64,000 bases of DNA, from the NCBI GenBank assembly GCA_017646665.1, contig JAGCMB010000029.1, positions 1-64,000 of the forward strand. Reading direction: 5' to 3'. Below are positions 4,664 to 28,123 of the stretch, in pieces (position 1 is the stretch's first letter; every line of letters begins with the position of its first letter). Both the position numbers and the translations under genes were made by a program. This DNA comes from Bacteroidaceae bacterium. GTDB lineage: Bacteria; Bacteroidota; Bacteroidia; Bacteroidales; Bacteroidaceae. The notes beneath the pieces were generated by a model, which did not search any database, had not been told where the DNA came from, and saw nothing but the letters and a program-made list of their open reading frames with translations.

Positions 4664-4673
4664 AGTGTGTTAT

Positions 4674-5164: not shown

Positions 5165-5203
5165 CAAATGTATTGTCACCTCTCTTTTCTTAGGTTGCTA
5201 TTT
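5165..5203 (-). promoter_or_regulatory. Phage-module promoter P1 (leftward)
   Basis: Read leftward: box AAATAGCAACCTAAG, 16 nt, then TACATTTG (perfect TAnnTTTG). The core AGCAACCT matches the boxes of promoters P3-P5 and the spacing is identical. It drives the 156-residue gene, its paralogue and terl. Confidence 0.7.
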
Positions 5204-5216
5204 TGACATTTTGTTT

Positions 5217-5624
5217 TCATTGTGCACGGAGTGTCTTGTAGAGTATGCCCCGGAAGGTTTGTTCGTCGAGATAGAAGGACGGTGCCGGTTCCTCAATTAT
5301 TTGTTCAAGGATTATGTATTTGTAGCGTTTGCTGCTGTCCTTTACTTTTTTGATGTACCGGTGATAGATTTCTTTGTACATCTCCAGTTTGTTGCTGTTT
5401 ATGAGTGGCAGTTTCTTCTTGCGTGATAGCAGTGACACAAAACGGCGTGCATTTTCGAATGTCACATAGAAACGTGGTGCCTTGCTTTTTACCGCGTGCC
5501 TGATTATCTCCTCTTGTGTGGCATAGGGCTTTGTTTTTCTAACTTCTTTAAGTGATTCAAAAAAACTCTTTACGACATCCTGTTTGCGTATGTCGCGAAC
5601 ATTTTCACTAATAAATTTTTCCAT
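5217..5624 (-). CDS. Phage protein, possible packaging or DNA-binding role
   Basis: A protein of 135 residues, basic and mostly helical, with a central APRFYVTFENARRFVSLLSRKK segment and a Lys/Arg-rich second half. It is the first gene of the leftward block that ends in the terminase large subunit. A small-terminase role fits its position and charge, but I cannot identify a helix-turn-helix with certainty. It has its own promoter (P2). No membrane or signal sequence. Confidence 0.7.
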   Translation of the reverse strand: MEKFISENVRDIRKQDVVKSFFESLKEVRKTKPYATQEEIIRHAVKSKAPRFYVTFENARRFVSLLSRKKKLPLINSNKLEMYKEIYHRYIKKVKDSSKRYKYIILEQIIEEPAPSFYLDEQTFRGILYKTLRAQ

Positions 5625-5640
5625 TCTGCTTTTTTGAACA

Positions 5641-5679
5641 CAAAAATATAGTCAAAAATGTCTAAAAAGTATGCTGTTT
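5641..5679 (-). promoter_or_regulatory. Phage-module promoter P2 (leftward)
   Basis: Read leftward: box AAACAGCATACTTTT, 16 nt, then TATTTTTG (perfect TAnnTTTG). It matches CAGCA..CTT.T of the consensus box at exactly the same distance, so it is a weaker member of the set. It lies 16 nt before the start of the 135-residue gene. Confidence 0.6.
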
Positions 5680-5823
5680 TGACACTTTATTTATCAACAG
5701 CCTTCATATACCTGCAGAAACGTGTTTCGAGGGTTCTTCGCAAGCCGGATTCTCTATTTTTATTTTATAAGGTGTGGCGGATGCGTTACCTCTCCTTTTG
5801 ATGATTTTTAGCAATAAGTGTCA

Positions 5824-5862
5824 TTTCAGCAACCTTGTCCGTGGCTTTCCGTTGTTCCTTTG
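5824..5862 (+). promoter_or_regulatory. Phage-module promoter P3 (rightward, capsid operon)
   Basis: Box TTTCAGCAACCTTGT (5824-5838), 16 nt, then TTCCTTTG (5855-5862; 7 of 8 to TAnnTTTG). The box is identical to that at 22555-22569 in the right module. The scaffold gene starts 22 nt after the -7 element. The box overlaps the expected -33 position, as for a site of an activator or competing repressor. Confidence 0.75.
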
Positions 5863-5884
5863 CCGATGAAAAACAAATTAATTT

Positions 5885-6685
5885 ATGGAACAGGTTTTAA
5901 GAAACAGAATGGGGGCTCAACAGCCTCTGGAGCCCGCTGTGCAGAGTAAAGCCCAAGACACTCTGTCCGACACAAACGCTGCTGCCTTGCACGGCGAACA
6001 GGCTACATTAGAGAATTTCAATGAAAAACTAAAAGCATTTTTCGGTGGTAATTTCGACATCTATGACACGCTGTCTCAGGATTTGCTTTTGAGGCATCTT
6101 GAGATGAACCGTGAACAGAATGAACGTCTTGCAACAATGCTTGAACGTGACCCACGCCTGGCGCAGATGCTTGTGGACGTAATTGACGGAAAACGTAACG
6201 CCCATAGTGCGGTAGCACGTTACTTCGGTCGCGGATTTATGAACATTGACGAGGAAAGCCCTGAATATGAAGAGATGATGCTTGCCGATGAAGAGCGCAA
6301 GAATGAGGTTATGCGTTTGGCAAACGACCGTCGTGAATATGAGGCTAACCTTGAAGCGAGCATGCCGATTATAGAATCCTTCTGCCAGGAAAGAGGCTAC
6401 GACCCTTCAGATTTTATGGACAACATTTGGGAAAAGCTAATCTTCCCCATTATGGCCGGAAAGTACACCGGTGAAGTGTGTACAGCTCTTGACCACGCCA
6501 TTACATACGAGAAGGATATTGAGGATGCTTTTGCTGCCGGTGACGTGAAGGGACGTAACTCAAACATCAGACGTATGAAGGAGGATTTTGGCGATGGTCT
6601 GCCAAAGGGAATGAACAGCGTCGCTCCCGATATTGAGCGTAAACGACCACGCAACTCGTTGATTGAAAAGGCTCTTAATGCCTGA
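5885..6685 (+). CDS. Putative capsid scaffolding protein
   Basis: A protein of 266 residues, acidic, almost all helical, with no catalytic motif, directly upstream of the major capsid gene. The first 35 residues are polar and Ala/Gln-rich, the middle (about 45-180) is a charged helical region and the tail is basic (RKRPRNSLIEKALNA). A basic C-terminal helix after an acidic helical body is typical of podoviral scaffolds, where it binds coat protein. No protease domain is visible. It opens the rightward operon under promoter P3. Function by context and composition. Confidence 0.7.
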   Translation: MEQVLRNRMGAQQPLEPAVQSKAQDTLSDTNAAALHGEQATLENFNEKLKAFFGGNFDIYDTLSQDLLLRHLEMNREQNERLATMLERDPRLAQMLVDVIDGKRNAHSAVARYFGRGFMNIDEESPEYEEMMLADEERKNEVMRLANDRREYEANLEASMPIIESFCQERGYDPSDFMDNIWEKLIFPIMAGKYTGEVCTALDHAITYEKDIEDAFAAGDVKGRNSNIRRMKEDFGDGLPKGMNSVAPDIERKRPRNSLIEKALNA

Positions 6686-6744
6686 TTGCGGAATTTTTTA
6701 TTAACGACATTTTTATCTTTTTATTAACAATAAACTATTTATCT

Positions 6745-8364
6745 ATGAAGAAAATCTTGAATTTCTTGAGAGAGAATCCTCTCTTTGTAGTTGTTTCTTT
6801 GGTATCGTTGCTGCTCTATGCAGTAGACAATGCTGAGGCAGGAATGATGCTTGCCGTAGTGTCGGTTGTTCCGGCCGGGACGCCAAAAGCGTCAAAGGGT
6901 ATCGCCGGTCTTGATACTCAGGGTGCCGGTGAGGCGACAACAGTGTCTAATGCAAGCGAGTTGGTAGGTGACCTTATCGACGCCGATGTTGATACTCAGA
7001 TTATCGGCATTGCCAGCGATGAGAGTGTCATTGATACTATCAAACGCAAAATTCGCCGACAGGTGCGTGTGAACTCCTTTGAGGTTGACCACTATCTCAT
7101 TGATGACAAGCGTTCAAAGGCCTATACCAACGAGGTATATACCGGTATCAAGGCTACCCGTGCCGAAATCCCTTTCTCAACAACAGGCGAAAGAAAAATC
7201 TTCCAGGAGTATTACACTGCCATCTGTAAGGGTGTGAACGGTTACGACCCGACAGGCCAGATTGAGTTGCCTGGTGTTGACCTTATGCTCTTCTTTGTGG
7301 GTAAGAACAGCACAACCGAAGCTCCGATTGCAATGGCGGTCAATGGTCCAAAGGTGAATGCAAGTGACGACTATTGCGTGGTGCCTACAATCCCTGCCGG
7401 AACTGAGATTATCCTCTTGTCATCGGCTGCATACGAAACGCAGAAGTTCATTGCTCCATCAACCATTGTTCCTGTCCCCGAGCGTATGTTCCTGCAGAAA
7501 CAGCTCTGCAACAGTATCGTGAGTGATTATTTTGCTGCACAGAAGAAACGTCTTCAGTTCAGCGAGTCACAAATTGCCGAGGCTGTGCTCCGCCAGTTCC
7601 GTCTTGAGAGTTGCCGTACGGCTTGGGTCGGTCAGCCTGGCAAGTTCAAGGTTCAGGCTATGGATAATGCTATGGGTTATCAGTGGGATTACTTCTCAAA
7701 GGGTATCCGTTGGCAATTCAAGCGTCAGTATGACCTTTCATCAAAGATTACCTTTGCTGACTTGATAAACCTTTCAATGGTGAAGTTCACTGGTTTCAAT
7801 TGCACAAAGCGTGCTATTTGGTTGTTGGGCAAGCAGTTGCTTAATGATATCCAGAAGATTGACCTCACATTGCACAAGAATATAAGCGTGACCGGTGACA
7901 AAATCTTTGGTATTGAGTGTACAAAAATCCACACCGTATTTGGTGACATTGACCTCATTCACGACCCGACACTCGATGCTCTCGGCTATGCACATTGCGG
8001 TGGTCTGATTGACGAGAACGGTCTTGTGCGCTACTACATGAAGAACGAGGATGCCAAGACCGAGAATGTCGACGGCGAGGAGGCAAAACGCGAGGTTGTG
8101 ATGACGATAGACTGTCTGTGTCTTAAAGGATATTCACATATCTGGGTGAACGGTTCTGCTGCCGAGAGCGACATCCCAGGTGCTTCGCGCGTGACAAGTG
8201 CTGCGTCATTGCCCGAGGAGCCTAACCTCAATGATGTGGTAATCCTTACAGCCGATATCAACCGTACAGTGAATGGTGAGAGCAAACTATGGTTTACAGC
8301 CGGAACTGTTGTGACCTACAACGGTACAACCTGGGTTGAATATACAGGTGAAATTATTGTCTAA
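6745..8364 (+). CDS. Putative major capsid protein with hydrophobic N-terminus
   Basis: A protein of 539 residues, the largest product between scaffold and connector, so the best candidate for coat protein. The body from about residue 50 is a mixed alpha/beta protein with no enzyme motif. The C-terminus (about 480-539) resembles a small Ig/beta add-on (VILTADINRTVNGESKLWF, then GTVVTYNGTTWVEY). The first 45 residues are odd: MKKILNFLRENPLFVVVSL and a second hydrophobic run form a signal-anchor-like segment ending near NAEAG, which suggests removal during head maturation or a membrane stage of assembly. Alternatives: a downstream start, although none is well placed, or another virion protein. 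Confidence 0.72.
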   Translation: MKKILNFLRENPLFVVVSLVSLLLYAVDNAEAGMMLAVVSVVPAGTPKASKGIAGLDTQGAGEATTVSNASELVGDLIDADVDTQIIGIASDESVIDTIKRKIRRQVRVNSFEVDHYLIDDKRSKAYTNEVYTGIKATRAEIPFSTTGERKIFQEYYTAICKGVNGYDPTGQIELPGVDLMLFFVGKNSTTEAPIAMAVNGPKVNASDDYCVVPTIPAGTEIILLSSAAYETQKFIAPSTIVPVPERMFLQKQLCNSIVSDYFAAQKKRLQFSESQIAEAVLRQFRLESCRTAWVGQPGKFKVQAMDNAMGYQWDYFSKGIRWQFKRQYDLSSKITFADLINLSMVKFTGFNCTKRAIWLLGKQLLNDIQKIDLTLHKNISVTGDKIFGIECTKIHTVFGDIDLIHDPTLDALGYAHCGGLIDENGLVRYYMKNEDAKTENVDGEEAKREVVMTIDCLCLKGYSHIWVNGSAAESDIPGASRVTSAASLPEEPNLNDVVILTADINRTVNGESKLWFTAGTVVTYNGTTWVEYTGEIIV

Positions 8365-8380
8365 TTGTCTATTTGCCTAC

Positions 8381-8397
8381 GGCGGTAACAACCGCCG
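8381..8397 (+). other. Short hairpin after the capsid gene
   Basis: GGCGGT and ACCGCC enclose a short AACA-type loop; a few nucleotides later come A- and T-runs. It could attenuate transcription or protect the capsid mRNA end, which would help make more coat protein than downstream products. It is too short to call a terminator. Confidence 0.35.
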
Positions 8398-8426
8398 CGG
8401 GCTTTGACCAAAAATTTTTTTAAAAA

Positions 8427-8852
8427 ATGAGAAAACGTATTACTTATGAGATTCACGGCCAGATAGAGCGTAACAGCTATTTCAGAATTGGTAAGGCCTT
8501 GGTGAGAATAGATTTTACGGGTGGAGCAATTAATTCTACAGGGGTCTATCCCGCCCAGTATTCAACGGACAATCCTCTGTTCCAGCGTGCAATAGAAAGT
8601 AGCGATGCTTTCCGTTGCGGTGAGATAAAACGTGGTAGAGTAGAGGTCTACGACGATGACAAAAAGGCCGAAGCTTCTGTGGCCGAGGCTGCAAACAAAT
8701 GTGATGTAGTCACCGAAGTTACAAATATGCAACAGGCACGTGCCTACCTGATGGCCGAACCTTACAATTGCCCATTGTCGCAGTTGCAGAACAAAAATGC
8801 CATAAAGAGTGTGGCAATGGCTAATTCTGTTTCATTTCCTAACTGGTTGTAA
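8427..8852 (+). CDS. Phage protein of unknown function after capsid
   Basis: A protein of 141 residues with no known motif. The N-terminal half (about 1-75) is predicted beta-rich (YEIHGQIERNSYFRIGKALVRIDF); the second half is helical and ends with LSQLQNKNAIKSVAMANSVSFPNWL. Its stop overlaps the start of the next gene (TAATG), so the two are translationally coupled. By position it could be a head decoration or head-completion protein. Function not established. Confidence 0.7.
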   Translation: MRKRITYEIHGQIERNSYFRIGKALVRIDFTGGAINSTGVYPAQYSTDNPLFQRAIESSDAFRCGEIKRGRVEVYDDDKKAEASVAEAANKCDVVTEVTNMQQARAYLMAEPYNCPLSQLQNKNAIKSVAMANSVSFPNWL

Positions 8853-9505
8853 TGGGTTGCGATGAACTTTTGAGAAAAGTCAGACTTGTACTCAATGAGG
8901 CCGAAAACGACAATGATGTATCACTCTTGTCTGTCGATACGCGCCAGCTCGACGATAGCATAATGGAACTCTTGCCACGTGCTGTTTCATATATTCAAAA
9001 GTCTAAGGGTGCCGGTGCAGGAAGAGTGAATACAAAAAGTGTCGCTCCATCTGGAATGAATGTCACAGCCAATGAAACAGGAGGCGGTGAACTTATCCTG
9101 CCCGACGATTTTGTAGGCCTGGTGTCGTTGCAGCTTGATGGGTGGTTGTCGCCTGTACACCAGATGTTCCCACATGACTCGAACGAGGCTGCGTGGCAAC
9201 GCAATGAGTATACGCGTGCCGGAATATGCAAGCCTGTATGTGTCGAGGCGTTTACAACCGATGGTAACAGGTGTGTTATGCTTTTCCCTTTTTCCGGCAC
9301 CGATGTCGCGAATGTCAGGCATTTTGTCTACGAGGCCGCTTTTGATGTGGCAGAGGGGCTTAATGGATATGACGATGGAATGGTTGATGCCGTTGTGTAT
9401 GAGTGTGCTTCGTTGCTTTATACAATGTTCGAACGCTATGATGCAGCCAATGCAATGCTGTCGCTTGCATTGGCTGCCTGTGGCGGACAAATAGGTAAAA
9501 AATAG
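8852..9505 (+). CDS. Putative head-tail connector (adaptor)
   Basis: A protein of 217 residues. A helical N-terminus (residues 1-50) precedes a segment rich in phage-adaptor-like features: ELILPDDFVGLVSLQLDGWLSPV near 90-110, an insertion with YTRAG and CKPVCVEAF, a beta stretch CVMLFPF, and a helical end (DGMVDAVVYECASLLYTMF). This order of helix bundle, LPDDF loop, beta strands and helix is seen in ring-forming podoviral connector proteins. The coupled start and its place between capsid and lysis genes agree. Identification is by pattern and position only. Confidence 0.55.
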   Translation: MGCDELLRKVRLVLNEAENDNDVSLLSVDTRQLDDSIMELLPRAVSYIQKSKGAGAGRVNTKSVAPSGMNVTANETGGGELILPDDFVGLVSLQLDGWLSPVHQMFPHDSNEAAWQRNEYTRAGICKPVCVEAFTTDGNRCVMLFPFSGTDVANVRHFVYEAAFDVAEGLNGYDDGMVDAVVYECASLLYTMFERYDAANAMLSLALAACGGQIGKK

Positions 9506-9520
9506 TGAAGTTATTGGATT

Positions 9521-9988
9521 ATGGATGGCTTGAGGTTTGTGATGGCATCATTACTTGCCAATATGGTGGGGTTGCTGTTTCCTATCTGGAATGACATTTT
9601 CGGGCTTGTCCTTCTTTTTACAGCCAATTTTGTTGTTGGTCTGCTTGCCGATGTGTGCAACCATTGCGATTGGAGCTTCAGAAAGGCTTTCAGCTTTTTT
9701 AGGGATGCTGCTATATATTTTGCAATGGTTGCCTGCATCTACCTCTTGGGTTACTTCAAGGGTGAAGAGAAGGCTGCCGTGCATTGCGTGTCGTTTACCA
9801 TTTATGTTGCTATATATTTCTATGGCACAAACATTTTGCGAAATGCACGCTTGATAACCAATGAAAAGAGTACTCTTTATAGTGTGTTGAACTTCTTGTA
9901 TTATGTCTTTAGCCTAAAAGTGCTTGAGCGCAGCAGCTACCTTAAGGATTATATCAATTATGAAAAACAGAATAAGAATAGTTGTTAG
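9521..9988 (+). CDS. Putative holin
   Basis: A protein of 155 residues with three or four hydrophobic segments (about 6-45, which can hold two helices, then 63-80 and 85-102) and a charged C-terminal tail ending KQNKNSC. It should lie in the inner membrane. The topology, size and position directly before a spanin-type gene fit a phage holin, which forms the lesion that starts lysis. Its 3' end overlaps the start of the next gene by 29 nt. No endolysin is seen beside it. Confidence 0.68.
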   Translation: MDGLRFVMASLLANMVGLLFPIWNDIFGLVLLFTANFVVGLLADVCNHCDWSFRKAFSFFRDAAIYFAMVACIYLLGYFKGEEKAAVHCVSFTIYVAIYFYGTNILRNARLITNEKSTLYSVLNFLYYVFSLKVLERSSYLKDYINYEKQNKNSC

Positions 9989-10400
9989 TGTCCTGCTCTT
10001 CTCCCTGATGGGGTGCGGCACGGTAGAGAAAGTCCGTGATGTGGAGTTTGTCACGCATAACAATTTTAAGGAGCGTTTCAAGAGTGACAGTGTCTTGGTG
10101 CGCGACAGTGTGCTTATCCGAGAAAAAAGTGACACGGTATTTTATACCAAATATCGGACTGTATATAAGGAACGGCTCAGGGTGGACACTGTTGTGCGTT
10201 GTGACACAATTTACTGTGACAGAGAGGTTGTGGTGGAGAGGGAGAGCGATGCTACAAGCAAGATGAGCCTTTTTTGGAAGTTGCCCCTTGCTGTTCTGCT
10301 CATTTTCTTGTTGTGGCGCACAGGCTTGTGGCGTGTATTGTGGAATTTGATTTTGAAAGGAGTGCGTTTATGTATAAAAATTTTTCATTTAAAGGAATAA
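9960..10400 (+). CDS. Putative unimolecular spanin (lipoprotein with C-terminal membrane segment)
   Basis: A protein of 146 residues from the start at 9960, chosen because it gives a clean lipoprotein signal: MKNR, a hydrophobic stretch, then the lipobox LMGC with Cys19. The middle (about 25-100) is polar and rich in D-T/D-S-V pairs (SDSVLVRDSVLIREKSDTV), probably an extended beta rod. Residues about 105-128 form a transmembrane helix, followed by a basic end. An outer-membrane lipid anchor plus an inner-membrane C-terminal anchor is the plan of u-spanins such as phage T1 gp11, which fuse the two membranes in the last step of lysis. It overlaps both neighbours. No sequence match is claimed. 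Confidence 0.68.
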   Translation: MKNRIRIVVSVLLFSLMGCGTVEKVRDVEFVTHNNFKERFKSDSVLVRDSVLIREKSDTVFYTKYRTVYKERLRVDTVVRCDTIYCDREVVVERESDATSKMSLFWKLPLAVLLIFLLWRTGLWRVLWNLILKGVRLCIKIFHLKE

Positions 10401-13201
10401 ATAGAAGTACAGACGTTATTTTGGCTCAAGATGGAGAGTGTCTTGATGTCGTAAATCTAAGAATGTCGAACGGTAGCCTGCACCCAATACCTCAGCCATT
10501 GCCGGTGGCTGAGGTTCAGGGGAGATATTCTGCATTTTACTGGCACGAAACGGCAGACAGTTACATTGCTGTAACCGACGACGCTGTAAGGACTTTGCAT
10601 TTCTTTAAAAAAGATTTCACTCCAATTCTATCGGGAGAGTCCATTCTGACCATTGACGGCTTGCGTCTTGTGAACGGCGTGGAATGTATTGGCAATATTG
10701 TGTGCTGTATGACAGAGTTGGGACTCTTTTACATTATGTTTGAGAATGGAACATATAATGGACTTGGAGAAAGGCCGCAAATTCCACCCGTTAATATTTC
10801 AGTATCGTCGAAGTTGGAAACTTTGAAGACCGAAGAGTCTTATTATACAATGGCAACGACAAGTGATTTGGAGGCTACTTGGAACTACAACGAAAAGGGG
10901 TACATAGAGGAGTGTGTCTCTGTGCTCAATAAAGCCGGTTATTACATTGACAGGGCTTTGTTCAGGATTGCACTCCGTCTTTATGACGGTAGTTACATAG
11001 ATGTCTCGAATGTGATTTATCTCAGCGATGAAACTTTCGAAAATGGAGTTGGGCGAGATGCTGAAAATATGAAATCGGAAGCTTTGAGTACCAACGTCCC
11101 CTCGCAATACTATGTTTACGTGCGCGGATTCAAAGTTGAGTTTTCTTTTGACACAACGACTTTGTCTAACTGGAGGAGCATTGTCGTGGGAATAGACCTT
11201 TTCTCAACAGCGTCAATACCGGGAAAGAAATGTGCGCTCAGTGGTAGAACACAGAAGTTTGAAATGTTTACCGCAAAACCACTTGATGAACTCTGGGACG
11301 AAACAGCGTCGTCATCATTGTATTATAAAGTGGCAGAGTATGATATTGACGGTAATCTGTTATCCCGTTTGGATGATGTTTCACCGGTTAATCTTGCATT
11401 GCAACAGGGATTGGAAACGATGAATGTACCATCGTCATACTCCAGTGTCGACGTGAAAAAAAGCTATGTTTATAATGGAAGGCTACATATTGCAGCGTTC
11501 AGGGAAATACCTTTCAATGGGTATGGTGCAGCTGCCTATCTTCCTATGTCGAGTGCTGTGAGCGAAGTCGATTCAATGTCCGTTCTGGTGAAGATGAGAA
11601 CTACACAAGGCGAATATACAGTAGGCCGGATGTTTGAGAAGCCTGTTTTGGGTGATGATGGCCACACATTGGTGTTGCCGCCTATGCTTTCCTACCCTGA
11701 TGCCCGTGCCTATGAAATGCAAATTTACATCAAGAAAGAGAATGTAGTGTACAGCAAAATATTTCCACTCACAGCGCATAAATATTTGAATATCTCCTAT
11801 TATCTGCATAAGTGGTATTCTCCTTACTCGACTTCTGTAACAGCTGAGTTTGCCAATGGCGGCAAGCCTGGCTCAACTATTTCCGATGAGGATATGTTGC
11901 GTCTGTTCAACAACGAACCGGGAATTCACGAGGTCATATACAGTGCTTCGCGTAATTGCTGGACATACAGAGGAGAGCAATTCCCACCCGAAGAGTTCAG
12001 TGCGTCGAGGCTTTTTGCCATACATCGCAATGCTGTTGATGGTGACAAATTGATATTCACAATCAACAGAGATGGCACGGGCAACCTCTCGTTCAAGGAT
12101 ATATACAATATACCTGTCGATACCACTTGGGATATACTTGATTCAATGCCTGATGGGGAGCTGCAACATTATGAAAAGAGGCGCAATGTGATGAAGGTAT
12201 CTATGGTGGAAAATCCTTTTGTTTTTCCTGCCAAGTGTACGTATGCACCATCGCAGAGCGCTATCGTTGGAATGTCAAGCAATACCATTGCCCTGTCGCA
12301 GGGGCAATTCGGACAGTTTCCGCTGTATGTCTTTTGCGCCGATGGTATATGGGCTATGTCGGTCGATTCATCGGGTACAGTCGCATACTTGGCAAGTCAT
12401 CAGGTTTCGCGCGATGTTTGTATCAATGCCAACACTATATGTGGTATAAGCGGTGGAGTTGTTTTTGCGGGTAAGCAGGGTATGATGCTTATTACCGGTA
12501 ACAGTATAAAGAAAATATCTTTGGCAATGGAAGGCAACGGCATATCACTTACGGGTGTTCCCGGCGATATCTTTGCAAGGATTTCGTCATTGGTGTCGCT
12601 CGAGGAGTGTGTAGGGAGTGATGATTTCCAAACTTTCATAAGCGATGCCAACGTTGCTTATTTGCCGGCACACAATGAAATCCTTGTCTATAATCAGGCA
12701 TATAAATACTCCTTTATATATTCATTTGTTTCGGCAATGTGGACAAGATTTCAAGGGCAGTTCTATGGTAGAATAAATGGTTGTGTCACTCCTCATCTTT
12801 TTACGTTTACCGATAGAGGAACAAGTATTTCCCTGATTACAGATGAAATCTCGGGCAGTAACAGGATTATGCTTTTTTCGCGCCCACAGCTATGGGGTAC
12901 AAAATTGCCTAAACGTGTCCTGCAACTATTGCTGTATGCCTATCTGGAGCCTCCAGAAGAGCGTACGCCTGGTGTCCCTCTGCTGGGATGCTATATGCTT
13001 GCAAGTAATGACGGGGTACATTTTAAAATAATTGCCGGTAGTGAAAAGAACGACAGGACTCAGGATGTCATCTTCCCATATTTTCCCACCCAATCATACA
13101 AATATTATCTTTTCGCGCTTGTCGGTGAGCTTGGCAAGGCAAGTGTAATGACAGGGATGGAGATTGATGTGAATGTACCGTGGAGAAACAGGTTAAGATA
13201 G
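10370..13201 (+). CDS. Large phage tail protein, nozzle/stabilisation type
   Basis: A protein of 943 residues from the start at 10370 (MYKNFSFKGINRSTDVI), preferred over an upstream in-frame ATG because AAAGGAG precedes it and the upstream part reads as a shadow of the spanin gene. The protein opens with a short FKGINRSTDVILAQDGECLDVVNLRM motif like the N-termini of P22 gp10-like tail proteins and continues as a beta-rich chain with repeated aromatic blades (YSAFYWHETADSYIAVTDDAVRTL), suggesting a propeller. The end is a jelly-roll-like stretch. A tail nozzle or DNA-stabilisation role is inferred. It is the last gene of the capsid operon, followed by a strong terminator. Confidence 0.65.
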   Translation: MYKNFSFKGINRSTDVILAQDGECLDVVNLRMSNGSLHPIPQPLPVAEVQGRYSAFYWHETADSYIAVTDDAVRTLHFFKKDFTPILSGESILTIDGLRLVNGVECIGNIVCCMTELGLFYIMFENGTYNGLGERPQIPPVNISVSSKLETLKTEESYYTMATTSDLEATWNYNEKGYIEECVSVLNKAGYYIDRALFRIALRLYDGSYIDVSNVIYLSDETFENGVGRDAENMKSEALSTNVPSQYYVYVRGFKVEFSFDTTTLSNWRSIVVGIDLFSTASIPGKKCALSGRTQKFEMFTAKPLDELWDETASSSLYYKVAEYDIDGNLLSRLDDVSPVNLALQQGLETMNVPSSYSSVDVKKSYVYNGRLHIAAFREIPFNGYGAAAYLPMSSAVSEVDSMSVLVKMRTTQGEYTVGRMFEKPVLGDDGHTLVLPPMLSYPDARAYEMQIYIKKENVVYSKIFPLTAHKYLNISYYLHKWYSPYSTSVTAEFANGGKPGSTISDEDMLRLFNNEPGIHEVIYSASRNCWTYRGEQFPPEEFSASRLFAIHRNAVDGDKLIFTINRDGTGNLSFKDIYNIPVDTTWDILDSMPDGELQHYEKRRNVMKVSMVENPFVFPAKCTYAPSQSAIVGMSSNTIALSQGQFGQFPLYVFCADGIWAMSVDSSGTVAYLASHQVSRDVCINANTICGISGGVVFAGKQGMMLITGNSIKKISLAMEGNGISLTGVPGDIFARISSLVSLEECVGSDDFQTFISDANVAYLPAHNEILVYNQAYKYSFIYSFVSAMWTRFQGQFYGRINGCVTPHLFTFTDRGTSISLITDEISGSNRIMLFSRPQLWGTKLPKRVLQLLLYAYLEPPEERTPGVPLLGCYMLASNDGVHFKIIAGSEKNDRTQDVIFPYFPTQSYKYYLFALVGELGKASVMTGMEIDVNVPWRNRLR

Positions 13202-13221
13202 TATAGTCCTGCTATATAATT

Positions 13222-13254
13222 AAAGGTCGTGTAATCTAGGATTACACGACCTTT
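13222..13254 (+). terminator. Terminator of the left phage module
   Basis: AAAGGTCGTGTAAT (13222-13235) pairs perfectly over 14 bp with 13241-13254 across a 5-nt loop. It ends the rightward phage operon 21 nt after its last stop. Confidence 0.9.
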
Positions 13255-13283
13255 GTTCTGCATCTGTCTTCTGTTGTCGATAA

Positions 13284-13442: not shown

Positions 13443-13470
13443 TCACCTTCTTGCTGTGTAATACTTTCTG

Positions 13471-13680: not shown

Positions 13681-13692
13681 AGTGCTTTGTAT

Positions 13693-14082
13693 TTATTTGT
13701 TGAATTTCCAATATATGAGATTGCTGTTGTCATTTTTTATTATCAATGTGGCTTCATCTATGAGGCTTTTTTTGCGTAATAACATAACTCTCCCAATCTC
13801 TTCATAGTTCTCCCTGTTTTGGTTGGCGGTATCTTTTTGTTGTTCTGTTTTTATCTTTATGCAATATCTGTTCATTATGGCTTTGTCGGTGCGTTCTTTG
13901 AGAAATTCCTTTACATAGGGCTCTCCGGCATAGCGTTCGTGTATGATATATTCTTCAATCAGGTTGTTCCTTGTACGCTTTGCTGGAATTGCTCTGTATC
14001 TGATAGTGTGTAGCCATTCCATAATCTTCTCACCAAAATAGCCGAACCATTTCCGGCATTTGACAATAACTCTACTTCTCAT
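13693..14082 (-). CDS. Basic protein of unknown function
   Basis: A protein of 129 residues, strongly basic (MRSRVIVKCRKWFGYFGEK) and mostly helical, with no membrane segment or known motif. It is transcribed divergently from the S24 repressor gene, with 245 nt between the two starts. That arrangement is common for accessory genes under repressor control, but the link is inferred. Confidence 0.55.
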   Translation of the reverse strand: MRSRVIVKCRKWFGYFGEKIMEWLHTIRYRAIPAKRTRNNLIEEYIIHERYAGEPYVKEFLKERTDKAIMNRYCIKIKTEQQKDTANQNRENYEEIGRVMLLRKKSLIDEATLIIKNDNSNLIYWKFNK

Positions 14083-14254
14083 AGTAAATTTGGATTTATT
14101 TGTTTTGTATTTAATTATATTTGTATTATGTTTGTGGGGTAACGTGTTTTTCTGCTTTATTTCCCCCGGTGTTTTGTGAAATAATACAAATAGCCGATTG
14201 TGGCTACAAATATAAACTGTAAAGTTGAGAAACGAGTTGTTGAATTAGTAAAAA

Positions 14255-14287: not shown

Positions 14288-14327
14288 TTTTTTAAATGAT
14301 TGAACGGTAATAAATTAGAATTTATAT

Positions 14328-16552
<2,225 letters not shown>

Positions 16553-16556
16553 TGCG

Positions 16557-16814
16557 ATGGAGAGGGATTTGCTTGAACTGGAGATTGTCTCGCCCGAAAA
16601 ACAGATTTTTAAAGGGCGTGTAGCGTGGGTGCAGGTCCCTGGCGCAAAGGCACCGTTCCGTGTGTTGGGTAATCACGCTCCGTTGGCTTCTTCGCTGTGT
16701 CCCGGGAAACTTAAATGGATGATGGGTGGCGAAGAACAGCAGATGCCGGTGAAGAGCGGCTTTGTCGAGGTGAAGAACAATAAAGTAATAGCCTTGATTG
16801 AGGTGAACACCTGA
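16557..16814 (+). CDS. atpC: F-type ATP synthase subunit epsilon (short form)
   Basis: A protein of 85 residues comprising only the N-terminal beta sandwich (LELEIVSPEKQIFKGRV, then GAKAPFRVLGNHAPLASSL, then KSGFVEVKNNKVIAL). The C-terminal two-helix domain, which inhibits ATP hydrolysis in other bacteria, is absent; this short form is common in Bacteroidota. It follows atpD by 4 nt. Confidence 0.93.
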   Translation: MERDLLELEIVSPEKQIFKGRVAWVQVPGAKAPFRVLGNHAPLASSLCPGKLKWMMGGEEQQMPVKSGFVEVKNNKVIALIEVNT

Positions 16815-16886
16815 ATGACATCAACACCGATAATCGCGTGAAGCAAGTCACAACCGATGCTTACGCAACTAAATACAAAATAGAAA

Positions 16887-17270
16887 ATGAACAAAAGAAA
16901 GACTATACTTGTTATTTTGGGGCTGATGCTGCTGATGACGGTAGCGGGTGAATTGCTCCTGTCGATTCTGTTTGACGGATATGCCGGAAAGGCGCATCTG
17001 CTTGTTCCTGTATTCTTCTTTGCTCTTTATGCCCTGCCTGTGGCTATTGCTGCACAGCCGCTCGATTCAAAACATTTTCTTAGACAATATATGGTATTCA
17101 AGGGCTTGAAATTGTTTGTTTCATTGGGAGCGCTGGTTGCATTTGGATTTGCTTTCAAGGAGCAGGTCTTCGGTGTATTTGTGAATTTCCTGATATACAG
17201 CCTTGTGATGATTGTTGTTGAAAATATATACGTGTTGAATCTAAAGAAAAAAATGGTAAAAGGCACGTGA
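16887..17270 (+). CDS. Small membrane protein in the atp operon (AtpI position)
   Basis: A protein of 127 residues with four hydrophobic segments (about 5-25, 34-52, 70-90, 96-115) and a basic C-terminus. It sits between atpC and atpB and overlaps atpB by 4 nt. The place and topology recall AtpI, which helps assemble the c-ring, but no sequence link is visible. It is a standard member of the Bacteroidota operon. Confidence 0.8.
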   Translation: MNKRKTILVILGLMLLMTVAGELLLSILFDGYAGKAHLLVPVFFFALYALPVAIAAQPLDSKHFLRQYMVFKGLKLFVSLGALVAFGFAFKEQVFGVFVNFLIYSLVMIVVENIYVLNLKKKMVKGT

Positions 17271-18343
17271 TGAGATTGTTGAGGTACATAATGTTCTTGT
17301 TGCTTTTGTTACCTTGTTGCGGAGCTTTGGCGGCCGGTTCCTCCCATCAGGAGGAAAAAACTGTTGATGTCAAGAAAATAATCTTTGACCACGTTAAGGA
17401 TTCATATGAATGGCACATAACGACAGTGAATGACAAGCATATTACTTTACCATTGCCTGTTATCATTTATTCGTCACGCACGGGATGGGAGGTCTTTCTC
17501 TCCTCGGTGTTCCACGATGTTGACGAGTATAGAGGGTTCAGGATATCAAGAGAGGGAAATTACGAGGGCAAGATTGTGGAACTTGATGCCGAAGGGAACG
17601 AACAACGGCCTTTGCTCGACCTTTCACTGACAAAGACCGTCGTGTCGGTATTTATAATATCATTCCTATTGATGTTGATAGTTGTTGGAACTGCGCGCTG
17701 GTACAGAAACCGCAAGCCCTCTGATAAGGCTCCGCGTGGCTTTGTCGGGGTAATGGAGATGGTTATAGATATGGTTGTGGAAAGTGTTATAAAGCCCAAT
17801 GTGGGTAGCCGTTACAAGAGATATGTATCGTTTCTGCTTACAGTCTTTTTTATGATATTCTTGACCAACCTTATGGGACTTCTTCCAATATTTCCCGGTG
17901 GAGCAAATGTTACAGGAAACATATCGGTTGCTATGGCACTTGCCTTATGTACCTTTGTGGCTGTGAACATATTTGGAAATAAAGAGTATTATAAGGAAGT
18001 CTTTTGGCCCGACGTTCCGGTGTGGCTGAAGGCTCCACTTCCTCTGATGCCGATAATTGAACTTGTGGGGGTGGTGGTGAAGCCATTTGCACTTACCATA
18101 CGACTCTTTGCAAACATTCTTGCAGGACACACAGCCTTGCTTGCCTTTGTTTCAATAATTTTTGTCACAATGGCTGTAAACAAGTATATTGGTAGTGCAA
18201 TGACGGTGGTGTCGGTCTTCTTCACCATATTTATGAATGTATTGGAATTGCTTGTTGCTTTTATCCAGGCATTTGTGTTTACGATGCTTTCGTCGGTGTT
18301 CATTGGACTTTCCCAACCCGAGCATCGGAAAACAAAACATTGA
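17267..18343 (+). CDS. atpB: F-type ATP synthase subunit a
   Basis: A protein of 358 residues, the proton-channel subunit of Fo. An N-terminal signal-like segment (to about 25) and a periplasmic region of about 90 residues precede the membrane part, a long form known in Bacteroidota. The key helix contains KPFALTIRLFANILAGHTALLAF with the essential Arg; the last helices include FIQAFVFTMLSSVFIGLS. The start overlaps the previous gene. Confidence 0.96.
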   Translation: MMRLLRYIMFLLLLLPCCGALAAGSSHQEEKTVDVKKIIFDHVKDSYEWHITTVNDKHITLPLPVIIYSSRTGWEVFLSSVFHDVDEYRGFRISREGNYEGKIVELDAEGNEQRPLLDLSLTKTVVSVFIISFLLMLIVVGTARWYRNRKPSDKAPRGFVGVMEMVIDMVVESVIKPNVGSRYKRYVSFLLTVFFMIFLTNLMGLLPIFPGGANVTGNISVAMALALCTFVAVNIFGNKEYYKEVFWPDVPVWLKAPLPLMPIIELVGVVVKPFALTIRLFANILAGHTALLAFVSIIFVTMAVNKYIGSAMTVVSVFFTIFMNVLELLVAFIQAFVFTMLSSVFIGLSQPEHRKTKH

Positions 18344-18365
18344 AAAAGAATTTATTAACCTTTAA

Positions 18366-18632
18366 ATGTTGAATACTATGTTTATGACAATTCTTCTTGA
18401 AGCTATCAGCGGTGCTTCGTTGGCAAATTTAGGCGCGGCTTTTGCAGCTGCAGCAGCTGTGTTTGCAGCAGCGTTGGGAATCAGCCGCATCGGATGTACT
18501 GCGCTTGAGTCGATAGCACGTCAACCCGAGGCTGCCGGTGATATAAGATCAAGTATGATTCTTGCGGCGGCTCTTATTGAGGGTGTTGCAATGTTTGCCA
18601 TTGTGGTCTGTTTCCTTGTACTTTTCGTGTAA
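18366..18632 (+). CDS. atpE: F-type ATP synthase subunit c
   Basis: A protein of 88 residues, two-helix hairpin of the rotor ring. The polar loop is RQPEAAGDIR and the ion-carrying Glu is in AALIEGVAMF. Helix 1 is Ala-rich without the Gln, and the Glu is followed by Gly rather than Ser/Thr, so the Na+ signature is absent and proton coupling is likely. An alternative start at 18378 or 18384 would shorten it slightly. Confidence 0.95.
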   Translation: MLNTMFMTILLEAISGASLANLGAAFAAAAAVFAAALGISRIGCTALESIARQPEAAGDIRSSMILAAALIEGVAMFAIVVCFLVLFV

Positions 18633-18650
18633 CGGTAACTTTAGTCAAGG

Positions 18651-19166
18651 ATGTCGTTGTTATTACCCGATGCAGGTCTGCTGTTCTGGATGCTTCTGGC
18701 ATTCGGGGTAGTGTTTGTCGTGTTGTATAAATACGGCTTTCCAATCATTGTTTCAATGATTGATGCCCGCAAAAAATATATCGACGATGCATTGAATGGT
18801 GCTAAAGAGGCCAATGCAAGAATTGCCAATGTTGAAGAAGAGTGCAATGCGCTGGTTGAGGATGCCCGTAAGAAACAGGTTGAGATATTGCGTGAGGCTA
18901 CTGCTGCAAAGGAACAGATGATGGACGAGGCGCGTGGGAAGGCCGATGCTGAAACGCAACGGATTATTGCCGATGCCAAAAAAGAGATTGAGCGACAACG
19001 CGAAGATGCCTTGAGCTTTGTTCGCGAGGAGGCTGCCAAGGTGGCTATAGCCGTGGCCGAGAAAATTCTACGTGATGAGCTTGCCGACGAATCGAGTCAA
19101 CAGGATTATATAGAGAAGCTTGTTGACAGGATAAATGGTGACAAAAAGGTAACAGAAGGTAAATGA
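18651..19166 (+). CDS. atpF: F-type ATP synthase subunit b
   Basis: A protein of 171 residues, the peripheral stalk. One N-terminal membrane helix (about 8-27) is followed by a long charged coiled coil (IANVEEECNALVEDARKK and on to EKILRDEL). Normal length. It overlaps atpH by 4 nt. Confidence 0.95.
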   Translation: MSLLLPDAGLLFWMLLAFGVVFVVLYKYGFPIIVSMIDARKKYIDDALNGAKEANARIANVEEECNALVEDARKKQVEILREATAAKEQMMDEARGKADAETQRIIADAKKEIERQREDALSFVREEAAKVAIAVAEKILRDELADESSQQDYIEKLVDRINGDKKVTEGK

Positions 19167-19708
19167 ACACGGGAGTTATATCAATGCGCTATGCTAAAGC
19201 TCTTTTTGCTTACGCAAAGGAGCAAGGTGCCGAAGATGCAATATACATGAATATGTTGCAGCTGATGGCTACTTTGCAACGGGTGAAAGAACTTGGCGAG
19301 GTGCTGAACATGCCTTCATTGTCAAAGGAGGAACGTGTTGGATTGCTCTGTTCGGCAGTGGACAGTTCTCCTGTATACAAGGATTTCATTCGCCTAATTG
19401 TTGATGCTGAACGCGAACAATTGCTTATATTTATCTCACATTGCTATGTGTCGCTTTATCGCAAGGCAAAGAATATTGTTGCAGCAAGGCTCACCACAGC
19501 CGTTCCTGTAAATGAGGCTCTATGTAACAAGATTTCTGCAGCCATTTTACCGAATTCAGTTACTGTAGAGATGCAGAACGTTGTTGACGATGGAATTATT
19601 GGAGGTTTTATTTATGAAACCGAGACGTACCGTTTTGATGCAAGTGTGAAAAGGCAGTTGCGTGATATTGAAAATAAGTTTATTAAACAAAATAAACAAC
19701 TTCTCTAA
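19163..19708 (+). CDS. atpH: F-type ATP synthase subunit delta
   Basis: A protein of 181 residues connecting the stalk to F1. It starts with [19 protein letters not shown], the usual RYAKALF motif, and ends with [20 protein letters not shown], the conserved DGIIGGF-type C-terminal element. Its stop overlaps the atpA start by one base. Confidence 0.94.
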
Positions 19709-21285
19709 TGAATATTAAACCAAGTGAGGTGTCGAGTGTGTTACTCGAACAGCTGAGAGGTCTCAAGAGTAAGATGGAATATGAAGAGGTGGGAACAGTT
19801 CTTCAAGTGAGCGACGGTGTCGTACGCATATATGGCCTATACAATGCCGAGGCCGAGGAACTGCTTGAGTTTGACAATGGAGTGAAAGCTATTGTCATGA
19901 ACCTCGAAGAGGACAATGTGGGCGCCGTGCTGTTGGGGCCTACCGACAAAATCAAGGAGGGTATGACCGTCAAACGTACCGGTCGCATCGCTTCAATAGA
20001 TGTGTGCGATGGAATGCTTGGCCGTGTGATTACTCCGCTTGGAGAGCCCCTCGATGGCAAGGGTGATATTGTTGGCGAGATGTGCGAGATGCCACTCGAC
20101 CGCAAGGCACCGGGTGTAATATTCCGCCAGCCGGTGACAGAACCTTTGCAGACCGGACTCAAATCAATAGACTCAATGATTCCAATAGGGCGTGGTCAGC
20201 GTGAACTCATTATCGGTGACCGTCAGACGGGAAAGACGGCTGTTGCGATAGATACAATATTGAACCAGCGTGCTGCATACGAGTCCGGGAAACCTGTCTA
20301 TTGCATATATGTGGCTATTGGCCAAAAAGGCTCAACGGTGGCTTCTATCGTGAATACCCTGCGTAATTACGGTGCAATGGACTATACTATCGTGGTTGCT
20401 GCAACAGCTGCCGACACTGCTGCAATGCAGTACTATGCACCAATGGCCGGTGCTGCGATTGGTGAGTATTTCCGTGACACCGGACGTCACGCACTTGTGG
20501 TATATGACGACCTCTCCAAACAGGCTGTAGCCTACCGCGAGGTATCGCTTATCCTGCGTCGTCCATCGGGACGCGAGGCCTATCCGGGTGATGTGTTCTA
20601 TCTGCACTCCCGTCTGCTCGAACGTGCAGCAAGAATAATCAATCAACAGCAGGTGGCTGAAAAGATGAACGACCTGCCACCAAGCCTTGTGGGCAAAGTA
20701 AAAGGTGGCGGCTCATTGACTGCATTGCCAATAATAGAAACGCAGGCCGGTGACGTTTCGGCATATATCCCGACAAATGTAATATCCATTACCGATGGCC
20801 AGATATATCTTGAGAGCGACCTCTTTAACCGTGGTTTCCGTCCGGCTGTGAATGTGGGAATATCTGTGTCGCGTGTAGGTGGTAATGCGCAGATAAAATC
20901 AATGAAGGGTGTTGCAGGAACCTTGAAGATTGATCAGGCACAGTATCGTGAGCTCGAAGCATTTGCAAAGTTCGGTACAGATGTCGATGCCGTTACTATG
21001 ATGGTAATTGAGCGTGGCCGTCGTACCAATGCTCTGCTAATACAACCGCAATATGCCCCAATGCCTGTTGGCGAACAGGTTGCCTTGTTGTATTGCGGAA
21101 CAAAGAACCTTTTACAGGATATTTCGGTTGACAAGGTGCCCGATTTTGAGAAACTTTTTCTTGATGTGCTGCGTTCAAGATATAAAGACACAGTGTTGGA
21201 TGTGCTTTCGTCAGGCGTGTTGAATACCGATGTTGAAAGAGTGATGACCGATGTCGCAGCCGATGTGGTTGCATCATTAAAGTGA
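19708..21285 (+). CDS. atpA: F-type ATP synthase subunit alpha
   Basis: A protein of 525 residues, the non-catalytic nucleotide-binding subunit. Motifs are the P-loop GDRQTGKTA, the preceding [36 protein letters not shown] and the alpha signature [16 protein letters not shown]. Length and order are normal. Confidence 0.98.
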
Positions 21286-21291
21286 TGAAGA

Positions 21292-22155
21292 ATGAATCTG
21301 AGAGAAGTTAGGGACAGGATTGCATCGGTGAAGAGCACGCAGAAGATTACTTCGGCTATGAAGTTGGTTTCTGCGGCAAAGCTCCGTCGCGCACAGGCCG
21401 CAATTGAGGGTATGTCGCATTATAGCAACAAACTGAATGAATTGCTTGCCTCTCTCCTTAACACAACAGATGGCTTTACAACAGAACTTGCTGTAAAACG
21501 TGAATGTAAAAGAGCTGTTGTTGTAGCGGTATCGTCCGACACCGGCTTGTGTGGTACATTCAATGTGAATATAATAAATAAACTCCGTGAAGTGCTTGAT
21601 GGCTACAAGTCGTCCAATACACAAGTGGAGGTATACACTGTTGGAAAAAAGGTTTCTGATGCAGTGAAGAAAATGGGTCGTATCCCTGTTGAGGCATTAA
21701 TGGCACAGTCGTCTGCACCGCAGTATGATGAAATTGCCAACGTCGTGCGCGACTTCATACGTCGTTTCCGTGCAGGAGAGATTGACAGGGTCGAGGTCGT
21801 GTATTCACATTTCAGGTCGGCGTCTAAGCAAGAGCCGACAACAGAGGCAATTCTGCCTGTCGAACTGAATGATTATTCCGAAAACTCTGTTTCGACCATT
21901 GACTATATTGTTGAGCCGGGGCGCGAGGAGTTGCTCTCGGAACTTGTCCCCAAAGTTATTGAGGTACATCTGTTCACCGCGTTACTTGATGCTGTTACGG
22001 CCGAGCACGCAGCGCGTGTGCTTGCTATGCAGATTGCAACAGACAATGCCACTGATTTGATTTCAGAACTCACTCTTGAATATAACAAAGGCCGTCAGCA
22101 GGCAATTACAAATGAACTGCTTGATATTATGTCGGGTAGCGGAGCAAACGTATAG
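21292..22155 (+). CDS. atpG: F-type ATP synthase subunit gamma
   Basis: A protein of 287 residues, the central rotor shaft. It opens with REVRDRIASVKSTQKITSAM, holds SSDTGLCGTFNVNI near residue 85 and ends with LTLEYNKGRQQAITNELLDI, all typical. It is the last gene of the operon, followed by a 20-bp terminator. Confidence 0.97.
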   Translation: MNLREVRDRIASVKSTQKITSAMKLVSAAKLRRAQAAIEGMSHYSNKLNELLASLLNTTDGFTTELAVKRECKRAVVVAVSSDTGLCGTFNVNIINKLREVLDGYKSSNTQVEVYTVGKKVSDAVKKMGRIPVEALMAQSSAPQYDEIANVVRDFIRRFRAGEIDRVEVVYSHFRSASKQEPTTEAILPVELNDYSENSVSTIDYIVEPGREELLSELVPKVIEVHLFTALLDAVTAEHAARVLAMQIATDNATDLISELTLEYNKGRQQAITNELLDIMSGSGANV

Positions 22156-22170
22156 ACAACTATAAAGTTA

Positions 22171-22214
22171 AAAATGTAGTGCCCCCAAAGTTGACTTTGG
22201 GGGCACTACATTTT
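22171..22214. terminator. Bidirectional terminator after atpG
   Basis: A perfect 20-bp stem (22171-22190 with 22195-22214) with loop TTGA, with A-run and T-run on its sides. It separates the rightward atp operon from the leftward 77-residue gene. Confidence 0.95.
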
Positions 22215-22232
22215 GCCATTACAGCGTTTCTC

Positions 22233-22466
22233 TTAGATTCCCCGCAGGGTTTGTTGCAGTAGCGCGCCAATCTCCTCGTCACCGTTCTCCCGTTCCTTGT
22301 TCAATTTGACAAGGAAGTCGGCTGTTGTCTTCAAGGCTTGGTTTATTGTGCCAGGGTCTTCGCAATTTACCGTGAGCTTCTCCAACCGTCCTATGAGGCG
22401 ATGAAAAAGGGAGAGCGTCTCGTTGTGTACATCATCAAGGCTTACGCTTTTACTTTTCTTTGTCAT
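22233..22466 (-). CDS. Small helical protein of the right phage module
   Basis: A protein of 77 residues, helical and charged (VHNETLSLFHRLIGRLEKL, then TINQALKTTADFLVKLNKERENGDEEI), without a known motif. It is transcribed leftward from promoter P4, which carries the same box as the capsid promoter, so it belongs to the phage system although it lies alone between atpG and the rightward genes. A role in packaging or regulation is conceivable; no evidence decides. Confidence 0.65.
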   Translation of the reverse strand: MTKKSKSVSLDDVHNETLSLFHRLIGRLEKLTVNCEDPGTINQALKTTADFLVKLNKERENGDEEIGALLQQTLRGI

Positions 22467-22482
22467 AATATGTTTTTATGGA

Positions 22483-22520
22483 CAAATATAATATCCTCTT
22501 TAGCAAACAAGGTTGCTGAT
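22483..22520 (-). promoter_or_regulatory. Phage-module promoter P4 (leftward)
   Basis: Read leftward: ATCAGCAACCTTGT, 16 nt, then TATATTTG (perfect TAnnTTTG). The start codon follows 17 nt after the -7 element. The box is the mirror image of the P5 box, giving a 14-bp inverted repeat, AACAAGGTTGCTGA at 22506-22519 and its complement at 22557-22570. Confidence 0.78.
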
Positions 22521-22554
22521 TTGCCAATAAATACAAACTGTTGATTTTGTGGCA

Positions 22555-22593
22555 TTTCAGCAACCTTGTTCTTCTGTTCCCATATTTCTTTTG
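22555..22593 (+). promoter_or_regulatory. Phage-module promoter P5 (rightward)
   Basis: Box TTTCAGCAACCTTGT (22555-22569), 16 nt, then TTCTTTTG (22586-22593; 7 of 8 to consensus). The 15-base box, its spacing and the TT variant of the -7 element all match the capsid promoter P3. The start codon lies 16 nt downstream. Confidence 0.78.
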
Positions 22594-28109: not shown

Positions 28110-28123
28110 AAACAGATTGAGTG

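Follow-up and report, generated by a model that had tools for sequence, protein, structure and literature searches.

A promoter box shared by two phage-derived modules and dispersed tagged genes in a genus of Bacteroidaceae

Two modules of phage-type genes lie in the window (the whole stretch of 64,000 nucleotides that was analysed), and five promoters in them carry one box upstream of a -7 element. The questions raised are whether this box marks a dedicated set of genes, what recognises it, and what kind of element it serves. The reading we favour, and hold to be probable, is a dedicated late-promoter box with a specific factor, which together would govern a regulon spread over several loci and belonging to a podovirus-like element, domesticated by the genus and akin to a gene transfer agent (GTA), with an S24 repressor above it. 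The box would be the upstream element of this promoter class, recognised by a specific factor that sets RNA polymerase on TnnnTTTG 16 nt downstream. This factor would be an activator at -33 or, less likely, a sigma factor with the box as its -35. Besides the head and packaging genes of the two modules, the promoters would drive genes for tail-fibre-like and for tagged toxin-like proteins and, in one species, an endolysin gene.

Five promoters with one box

The promoters are listed by coordinates and strand.

5165..5208, minus: P1, weaker, degenerate box (8 of 12 letters) with TGTCA, 16-nt spacer, TACATTTG; 5' of the 4674-5144 gene
5641..5684, minus: P2, also weaker, box with 9 of 12 letters, TATTTTTG, palindrome in the spacer; 5' of the 5217-5624 gene
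5819..5862, plus: P3, full box, N16, TTCCTTTG; 5' of the scaffold-like gene
22483..22526, minus: P4, full box, N16, TATATTTG; drives B22233
22550..22593, plus: P5, full box, N16, TTCTTTTG; first gene B22609

The 15-mer that the first-pass annotation reported as identical in P3 and P5, TTTCAGCAACCTTGT, is found exactly at 5824-5838 and 22555-22569 (both plus strand), and the P4 box, ATCAGCAACCTTGT, at 22507-22520 on the minus strand. When the box is taken as the 12-mer CAGCAACCTTGT, which occurs exactly three times within the window, its distance from the 8-nt -7 element is 16 nt in all five promoters, as had been claimed, and the -7 elements of P3 and P5 do begin with TT, not TA. What had been overlooked is that the motif extends further 5', to TGkCA-N3-CAGCAACCTTGT-N16-TnnnTTTG, the extension being TGTCA in P1, P2 and P3 and TGGCA in P4 and P5.

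With nine spacings allowed, spacing 16 was found upstream of the scaffold gene (P3) at 37 of 40 orthologous loci, there being no good box site in genomes G017, G038 and G008. Upstream of B22609 (P5, the first gene of module B) it was found at 30 of 37 loci, a count in which one genome is entered twice (L078/L124), one locus belongs to another genus (L107) and two were left out as unusable (L093, L123). The figures were 21 of 38 for B22233 (P4), with two genomes entered twice (L078/L124 and L094/L123), and 17 of 35 for A4674 (P1). The P2 box stands at the least constant distance in the genus, either 15 or 16 nt.

A dedicated regulator had been proposed at -33; the box does overlap that region, and for the binding protein itself there is a candidate only (see below). 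It is possible, but unlikely, that this protein is a dedicated sigma factor with the box as its -35 and TnnnTTTG as the -10/-7 partner, a separate activator then being unneeded. The asymmetry of the box and its nearly fixed distance from the -7 element would suit a sigma factor, as would its AAC core, which is common in ECF -35 boxes; however, the -7 part is near the usual Bacteroidota element, the motif reaches TGkCA and at about 20 nt exceeds a usual -35, and no sigma family was matched among the module proteins scanned.

The two modules and their descent

Module A consists of the following genes.

2184..4190, minus: large terminase (TerL), phrog_2, 2.6e-20
4187..5144, minus: two genes, phrog_19255 (function unassigned in the family), 1.2e-6 and 2.2e-8
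5217..5624, minus: A5217, 135 aa, first gene of the terL operon, phrog_27246
5885..6685, plus: scaffold-like protein, by position before the capsid gene; phrog_22323 (family without assigned function)
6745..8364, plus: major capsid-like protein, phrog_26635 (family without assigned function), 1.8e-21; SU10_MCP 0.041, below cut-off
8852..9505, plus: head-tail adaptor-like protein, SU10_adaptor 2.5e-5, just under the curated cut-off
9521..10400, plus: holin-like protein (Phage_holin_4_1 0.0029, below cut-off), then a lipoprotein with a C-terminal membrane segment, spanin-like by eye
10370..13201, plus: tail-type protein, by position; phrog_32516 (family without assigned function), 3.4e-50, scanned as 10274-13201

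Module B consists of four.

22233..22466, minus: B22233, 77 aa, from P4; possible small terminase without HTH
22609..23127, plus: B22609, the gene next to P5; without a PHROG match
23442..28109, plus: 1555-aa protein with LPD23 (7.4e-10)
28121..30055, plus: portal protein, P22_portal 3.7e-34; phrog_156

The LPD23 protein is likely an ejected virion protein. TerL shares approximately 40% identity with the genes at the TerL position in three temperate phages of Bacteroides (BF1-TP2, BKO1-TP3 and BS-TP4), which also have a homologous portal (about 35%), capsid and A5217-like gene and the same divergent layout of scaffold position and terL. These three are phage genomes, BF1-TP2 having an integrase and replication genes, and their box differs from that of the element: BF1-TP2 has its own, TTTAT(C/T)GTTATG, which three of its promoters carry at 17 nt from the -7 element; one of these is at the scaffold position, and none precedes the A5217 homologue.

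The capsid gene is present in 43 and the portal gene in 41 of the 44 genomes of the genus, with no stops listed in either. Among the five genes for which dN/dS was computed, the medians over unsaturated pairs were about 0.06 for capsid, 0.09 for TerL and 0.08 for portal, which points to purifying selection on the head and packaging genes. On vertical descent, which would be a further GTA trait, the two genes differ: portal distances track those of ligA (r = 0.81), dapA (0.72) and atpG (0.76), but those of capsid show no correlation with AtpD (r about 0, n = 13). The modules are separate in many species: in G019 and G030 they are neighbours, elsewhere they flank the atp operon, and in G002 approximately 105 kb of a single contig lies between them. 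Their host neighbours differ in part of the genus.

These data bear on whether the modules are simply a remnant or active prophage, split recently or by misassembly, which we consider improbable. An apparently complete related prophage with an integrase does exist (G009:C6), and the divergent layout is common to temperate phages; against this, the split recurs across species, the reading frames are intact by the listing and dN/dS is low, tagged and tail-fibre-like genes elsewhere share the box, and no integration or replication family was found among the listed module ORFs scanned. Phage-derived genes for packaging (TerL, portal), head (capsid-like, adaptor-like) and tail, with no integration or replication family among those scanned and spread over several loci (two modules plus dispersed genes preceded by the box), are traits of a GTA. 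The whole is most likely GTA-like, and host-made particles would then carry DNA, and perhaps proteins.

A small terminase lacking the N-terminal HTH is a further trait proposed for GTAs in the available part of PMC6854486. In the G009 prophage the corresponding position is taken by an HTH protein of 172 aa. It was considered as the parent of B22233, and is unsupported by hhalign (probability 1.6), leaving it as a lead only; searches for it gave no match in phages, and among viral contigs no relative was confirmed.

The alphaproteobacterial RcGTA and CcGTA are similar by description in having domesticated head and packaging genes at several loci; they belong to another phylum, and here there are a separate putative S24 layer and tagged toxin-like genes. 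VSH-1 of Brachyspira, from an unrelated host and likened by description only, is a divided-genome GTA according to a title cited in PMC11841831. That paper sees an obstacle in GTAs whose genes are spread over multiple loci, some of which hold one or two genes. The well-studied GTAs are few and mostly alphaproteobacterial, according to the accessible portion of PMC12946183. FpGTA of Faecalibacterium (Bacillota) has no such box regulon in the accessible part of its description, where lateral transduction, not a GTA, is reported for Bacteroides. As far as the accessible text of open PMC literature goes, preprints excluded, we found no GTA described for Bacteroidota. Scanning with the box would uncover the dispersed pieces of an element like this.

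Candidate regulators

Four features bear on the repressor.

5649..5664, no strand: palindrome-like TAGTCAAAAATGTCTA inside P2, candidate S24 operator
13693..14082, minus: A13693, 129 aa, facing away from the S24 gene; no Pfam match
14191..14206, no strand: palindrome TAGCCGATTGTGGCTA, in the gap that separates A13693 from S24
14328..14954, plus: S24 peptidase-type repressor, Peptidase_S24 3.6e-13; N-terminal HTH by eye

The P2 palindrome recurs at 21 loci including the window, mostly as TAGCCA-N4-TGGCTA or near it, and 35 of 54 matches to the pattern fall within the P2 and S24 regions. The S24 repressor probably acts at this palindrome, which stands within P2 and again ahead of the repressor's own gene, and not at the box, where it had been suggested to bind. 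The palindrome lies in the P2 spacer and P2 would therefore be under a second control, with S24 acting above the regulon.

The first gene from P2, A5217, is our leading candidate for the activator at the box, and could alternatively be a small terminase. Its family is represented at 28 IMG/VR loci and in the three Bacteroides phages; Pfam/PHROG and solved-structure searches gave no family showing DNA binding, and no solved structure was useful for A5217 or B22233. That the box is instead a repressor operator silencing these promoters has a slim chance: it does overlap the -33 region, but the TT start of the P3 and P5 -7 elements suits promoters needing help, and a plausible repressor with a palindrome of its own is already present.

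Distribution of the box and the dispersed genes

In the 2.13-Mb genome, CAGCAACCTTGT-N14..18-TnnnTTTG has six sites, all at spacing 16, and the reversed pattern none; the extended motif with up to 3 mismatches has ten, with none in the reversed control. Four of the ten lie in the two modules, one precedes a tail-fibre-like gene, four precede tagged genes and one has no visible ORF. The genome-wide scan that had been proposed as a check thus places nine of ten sites before such genes, and not at many unrelated host promoters; the box is specific. Across genomes, which for the genus are fragmented metagenome-assembled ones, the extended motif was matched in 41 of 44 (all except G013, G017 and G038) as against 3 of 76 others, below the 6 reversed-control matches there, and GCAACCT-N19-TnnnTTTG gave 197 matches to 14 reversed in the 44. 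That the box is a general host promoter feature which phage genes happen to use is very improbable and already largely refuted, for although its TAnnTTTG part is the ordinary -7 element of Bacteroidota, the counts above speak against it and no conserved spacing-16 box was found upstream of mcp, portal, atpD, ligA, dapA, terL or S24 at orthologous loci.

The shared box and the specificity of its sites support the earlier proposal of one regulon for the two modules, and from the box we infer common control of the dispersed genes as well. The box thereby connects genes of toxin-like type with a putative particle of phage origin in one of the major bacterial families of the gut. A common box, a fixed distance to the -7 element, functionally linked genes and conservation across species are what a late-promoter regulon has, and all are found here. 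In viral contigs the exact box occurred in 13 stretches; no module protein was encoded in the DNA examined around them, and they were taken as background.

By reading, 44 dispersed sites (40 stretches, hand-picked among the matches listed, so that their make-up is not an unbiased rate) comprise 10 before phage-part genes, 12 before tagged toxin-like genes, 1 before a GIY-YIG gene, 7 before small families without assigned function, 5 without a clear ORF, 4 before host-like genes and 5 inside coding sequences. Three of the phage-part calls were made by eye on proteins with no family match (L166 and L189, tail-fibre-like, and L154), and a fourth, L177, by eye outside the family scan. The regulon includes an endolysin gene in one species.

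Four genes of the genome itself that follow the box share N-terminal tags and are toxin-like by domain or tag, two of them (tag II) being without a known domain or unscanned. The tags are common to proteins with differing C-terminal domains (DUF6973, DUF5675). Effector-immunity pairs of T6SS and polymorphic toxins likewise have N-terminal tags on varied C-terminal domains, with lipoprotein or secreted-looking neighbours; unlike T6SS effectors, the genes here have a promoter box in common with phage structural genes. The T6SS sheath family PF05943 was matched in none of the 44 genus genomes, its positive control being matched in E. coli; PF17541 was also matched in none, though no positive control was matched either.

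It is conceivable, if doubtful, that the podovirus was turned into a protein-delivery particle, the tagged toxins being co-expressed through the box with head, tail-fibre and lysis genes, loaded by their tags and injected into competitors, while their neighbours protect kin. If true, the capsid would serve as a weapon that works without contraction, whether or not DNA is also transferred. Tags I and II were also considered as a shared packaging signal, and gave no convincing match in virion proteins among 5890 ORFs of the examined loci. As a separate observation, made by eye, the neighbours of tagged genes look like lipoproteins or secreted proteins, and some resemble immunity proteins.

The box and its spacing at the five promoters

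Re-reading of the window sequence bore out the positions of the five phage-type promoters, P1 to P5, and the fixed 16 nt which the first-pass annotation had claimed between the box and the -7 element. With the box taken as CAGCAACCTTGT, 16 nt separate it from the 8-nt -7 element (TnnnTTTG) in 5/5 promoters. P3, P4 and P5 match the box at 12/12 letters, P2 at 9/12 and P1 at 8/12. All five also have TGkCA three bases 5' of the box, a feature absent from that annotation. The open reading frame list starts B22609 (a module B gene, named by its window start) at a GTG, 22549, inside P5 (window 22549-22608); ATG 22609 is likelier, by conservation.

The genome-wide scan that had been proposed, using the exact pattern at spacings of 14-18, gave 6 sites in the 2.13-Mb genome of the same assembly, all at 16, and the reversed pattern gave 0. 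Allowing up to 3 mismatches, the extended motif gave 10 sites, P2, P3, P4 and P5 among them, and 0 when reversed; P1, with 4 box mismatches, lies outside these 10. Across 44 genomes of one Bacteroidaceae genus, GCAACCT-N19-TnnnTTTG had 197 matches compared to 14 for its reverse. The extended motif occurs in 41/44 genomes of the genus compared to 3/76 outside, its reverse matching once within the genus and 6 times in the 76 other genomes.

Conservation of the promoters and modules

The region upstream of each gene was scanned, with spacings of 12-20 allowed, in 40 capsid-centred stretches, 40 portal loci and the window.

Upstream boxes scoring at least 13 of 17. Shuffled control, one per row except for B22609.
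Gene; spacing 16; other spacings; shuffled
Scaffold; 37/40; -; 2/40
B22609 (P5); 30/37; -; 13/185
B22233; 21/38; 4 more at 15, 3 at 12; 2/38
A4674; 17/35; -; 0/35
A5217; 12/36; 10 more at 15; 0/36

At mixed spacings, the real upstreams of other genes reached this threshold in 0/41 (mcp), 0/40 (portal), 2/25 (S24), 1/15 (atpD), 2/24 (ligA), 3/22 (dapA), 1/31 (terL) and 5/35 (tail) cases. A13693 reached it in 6/23, four at spacing 16, and one site recurs among the dispersed sites (L158); judged from these upstream scores, A13693 may therefore belong to the regulon in some species. In two genomes of the genus that have capsid and portal genes, G017 (L141) and G038 (L140), the scaffold gene lacks a recognisable box, which may have drifted there. 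A degenerate box at spacing 16 precedes a toxin-like gene in G017 (L265, tag I, see below).

Gene content of the two modules.
Module A; TerL, small genes, scaffold-like, capsid-like, adaptor-like, holin-like and tail-type genes
Module B; B22233, B22609, a small gene, a 1555-aa LPD23 protein, portal

In the window, A13693, the S24 repressor gene (14328..14954, +) and the ATP synthase operon lie between the modules, and ligA and dapA follow module B. Among the 40 portal loci, many of which end at contig edges, B22233 is present in 35, ligA in 23 and atpG in 12; atpD is reached in 14 of the 40 capsid stretches. Not every locus shares this layout. There is no ligA despite 10 kb behind the portal gene in, for example, L080, L096 and L099, module B directly follows S24 in G019 and G030 (L123, L124), and about 105 kb of one contig separate the capsid and portal genes in G002. 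G024 and G041 (L163, L191) have a lone tail-type gene homologue under its own box, that of L163 matching phrog_32516 (6.9e-37). A small Mrr_N-domain protein (window 1645-1962, Pfam 2.9e-24) adjoins the terL operon, and a TerL-homologous gene is annotated 'tail spike protein' in three phage records (PQ571263, PQ571269 and PQ571277).

The capsid gene was found in 43/44 genomes of the genus, the exception having a completeness of 63%, and the portal gene in 41/44; no stops are listed in these 43 capsid and 41 portal genes. By record annotation, 39/40 portal loci come from Bacteroidaceae or Bacteroidales bacterium MAGs, a ruminant gut sample being named for 34 of the 39, and the remaining one is Mediterranea. 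Median dN/dS, with synonymous sites near saturation, was 0.061 for capsid, 0.087 for TerL, 0.080 for portal, 0.150 for A5217 and 0.149 for scaffold. Portal distances correlate with those of ligA (r 0.81, n=24), dapA (0.72, n=22), atpG (0.76, n=13) and atpA (0.61, n=12); capsid and AtpD distances showed no correlation (r -0.03, n=13).

The element is classed as GTA-like (gene transfer agent-like) by its anatomy, and is not a proven GTA. GafA of RcGTA binds promoters close to -10/-35 (PMC9638019), so that such logic is already known for GTAs.

Boxes beyond the window

The other six of the ten extended-motif sites in the same genome (contig:position). Tags I and II are shared N-terminal stretches of toxin-like proteins.
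C54:33289; upstream of the gene for a tail-fibre-like protein of 797 aa that contains a GDPD domain (Pfam 2.6e-29)
C60:97564; before a gene with tag I and DUF6973 (Pfam 5.2e-19), followed by a lipoprotein-like gene
C2:1185; before a gene with tag I (also by homology match) and, by eye, a stretch resembling DUF5675; a secreted-looking protein follows
C52:8621; before a tag II gene, no Pfam family
C5:25765; before a tag II gene, tag by eye
C54:38982-39025, minus (L005); perfect extended box, spacing 16, no ORF of note

The phrog tail-fibre match of the C54:33289 protein falls on the same GDPD part. At C54:38982 the single downstream ORF of at least 35 aa encodes 39 aa and is more than 400 nt away; perhaps the box drives a small RNA, or the cargo gene behind it has been lost. 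Across the genus tag I is found on both DUF6973 and DUF5675 proteins. Tag II is carried by a DUF6973 protein of G036 (L155, Pfam 7.6e-10) and by C52-type proteins without DUF6973. The C60 protein has matches in 23/44 genomes, some to the tag or a fragment only. In other species the genes behind hand-picked box sites include a GH108 endolysin (L193, Pfam 2e-19), tail-fibre-like proteins (by eye) and small unknown families.

Two IMG/VR contigs (L195, L196; capsid 63% identical) have CAGCAACCGTTA with a 16-nt spacing upstream of the scaffold gene, and L214 has a similar box, read by eye, so the box probably extends beyond this genus. Mismatch-free matches to the full box in viral contigs, on the other hand, look like background. 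A related prophage in G009:C6 (L201-L203; capsid 74% identical to that of the element), apparently complete and with an integrase, gave no good CAGCAACC box.

Candidate control proteins

A5217 is the first gene of the P2 operon, under its own control, and the P1 box lies behind it, from where P1 could restart transcription. In the temperate Bacteroides phage BF1-TP2, TTTAT(C/T)GTTATG stands 17 nt from the -7 8-mer (one of which reads CATATTTG; spacing counted manually) at three promoters:
39178 (-), L197 39178
61001 (+), L198 11001
61052 (-), L198 11052

That box was not found at the promoter of the BF1-TP2 homologue of A5217. Both the operon arrangement and this omission fit A5217 as an activator, and it is tentatively put forward as one; the box is equally likely to be read by an activator or a sigma factor from an unlinked gene. 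No DNA-binding fold for A5217 appeared among family matches or solved structures, and a small terminase is another possible identity for it.

S24 may be a self-cleaving, SOS-type repressor, from its family membership. We infer from the distribution of one palindromic motif that it would repress the P2 region and its own upstream. TAGnC-N6-GnCTA has 54 matches in 1.45 Mb of loci that overlap in part. The P2 region accounts for 21 of them and the sequence upstream of S24 for 14 (one genome counted twice), together 35; the remaining 19 fall at other places, several within ligA.
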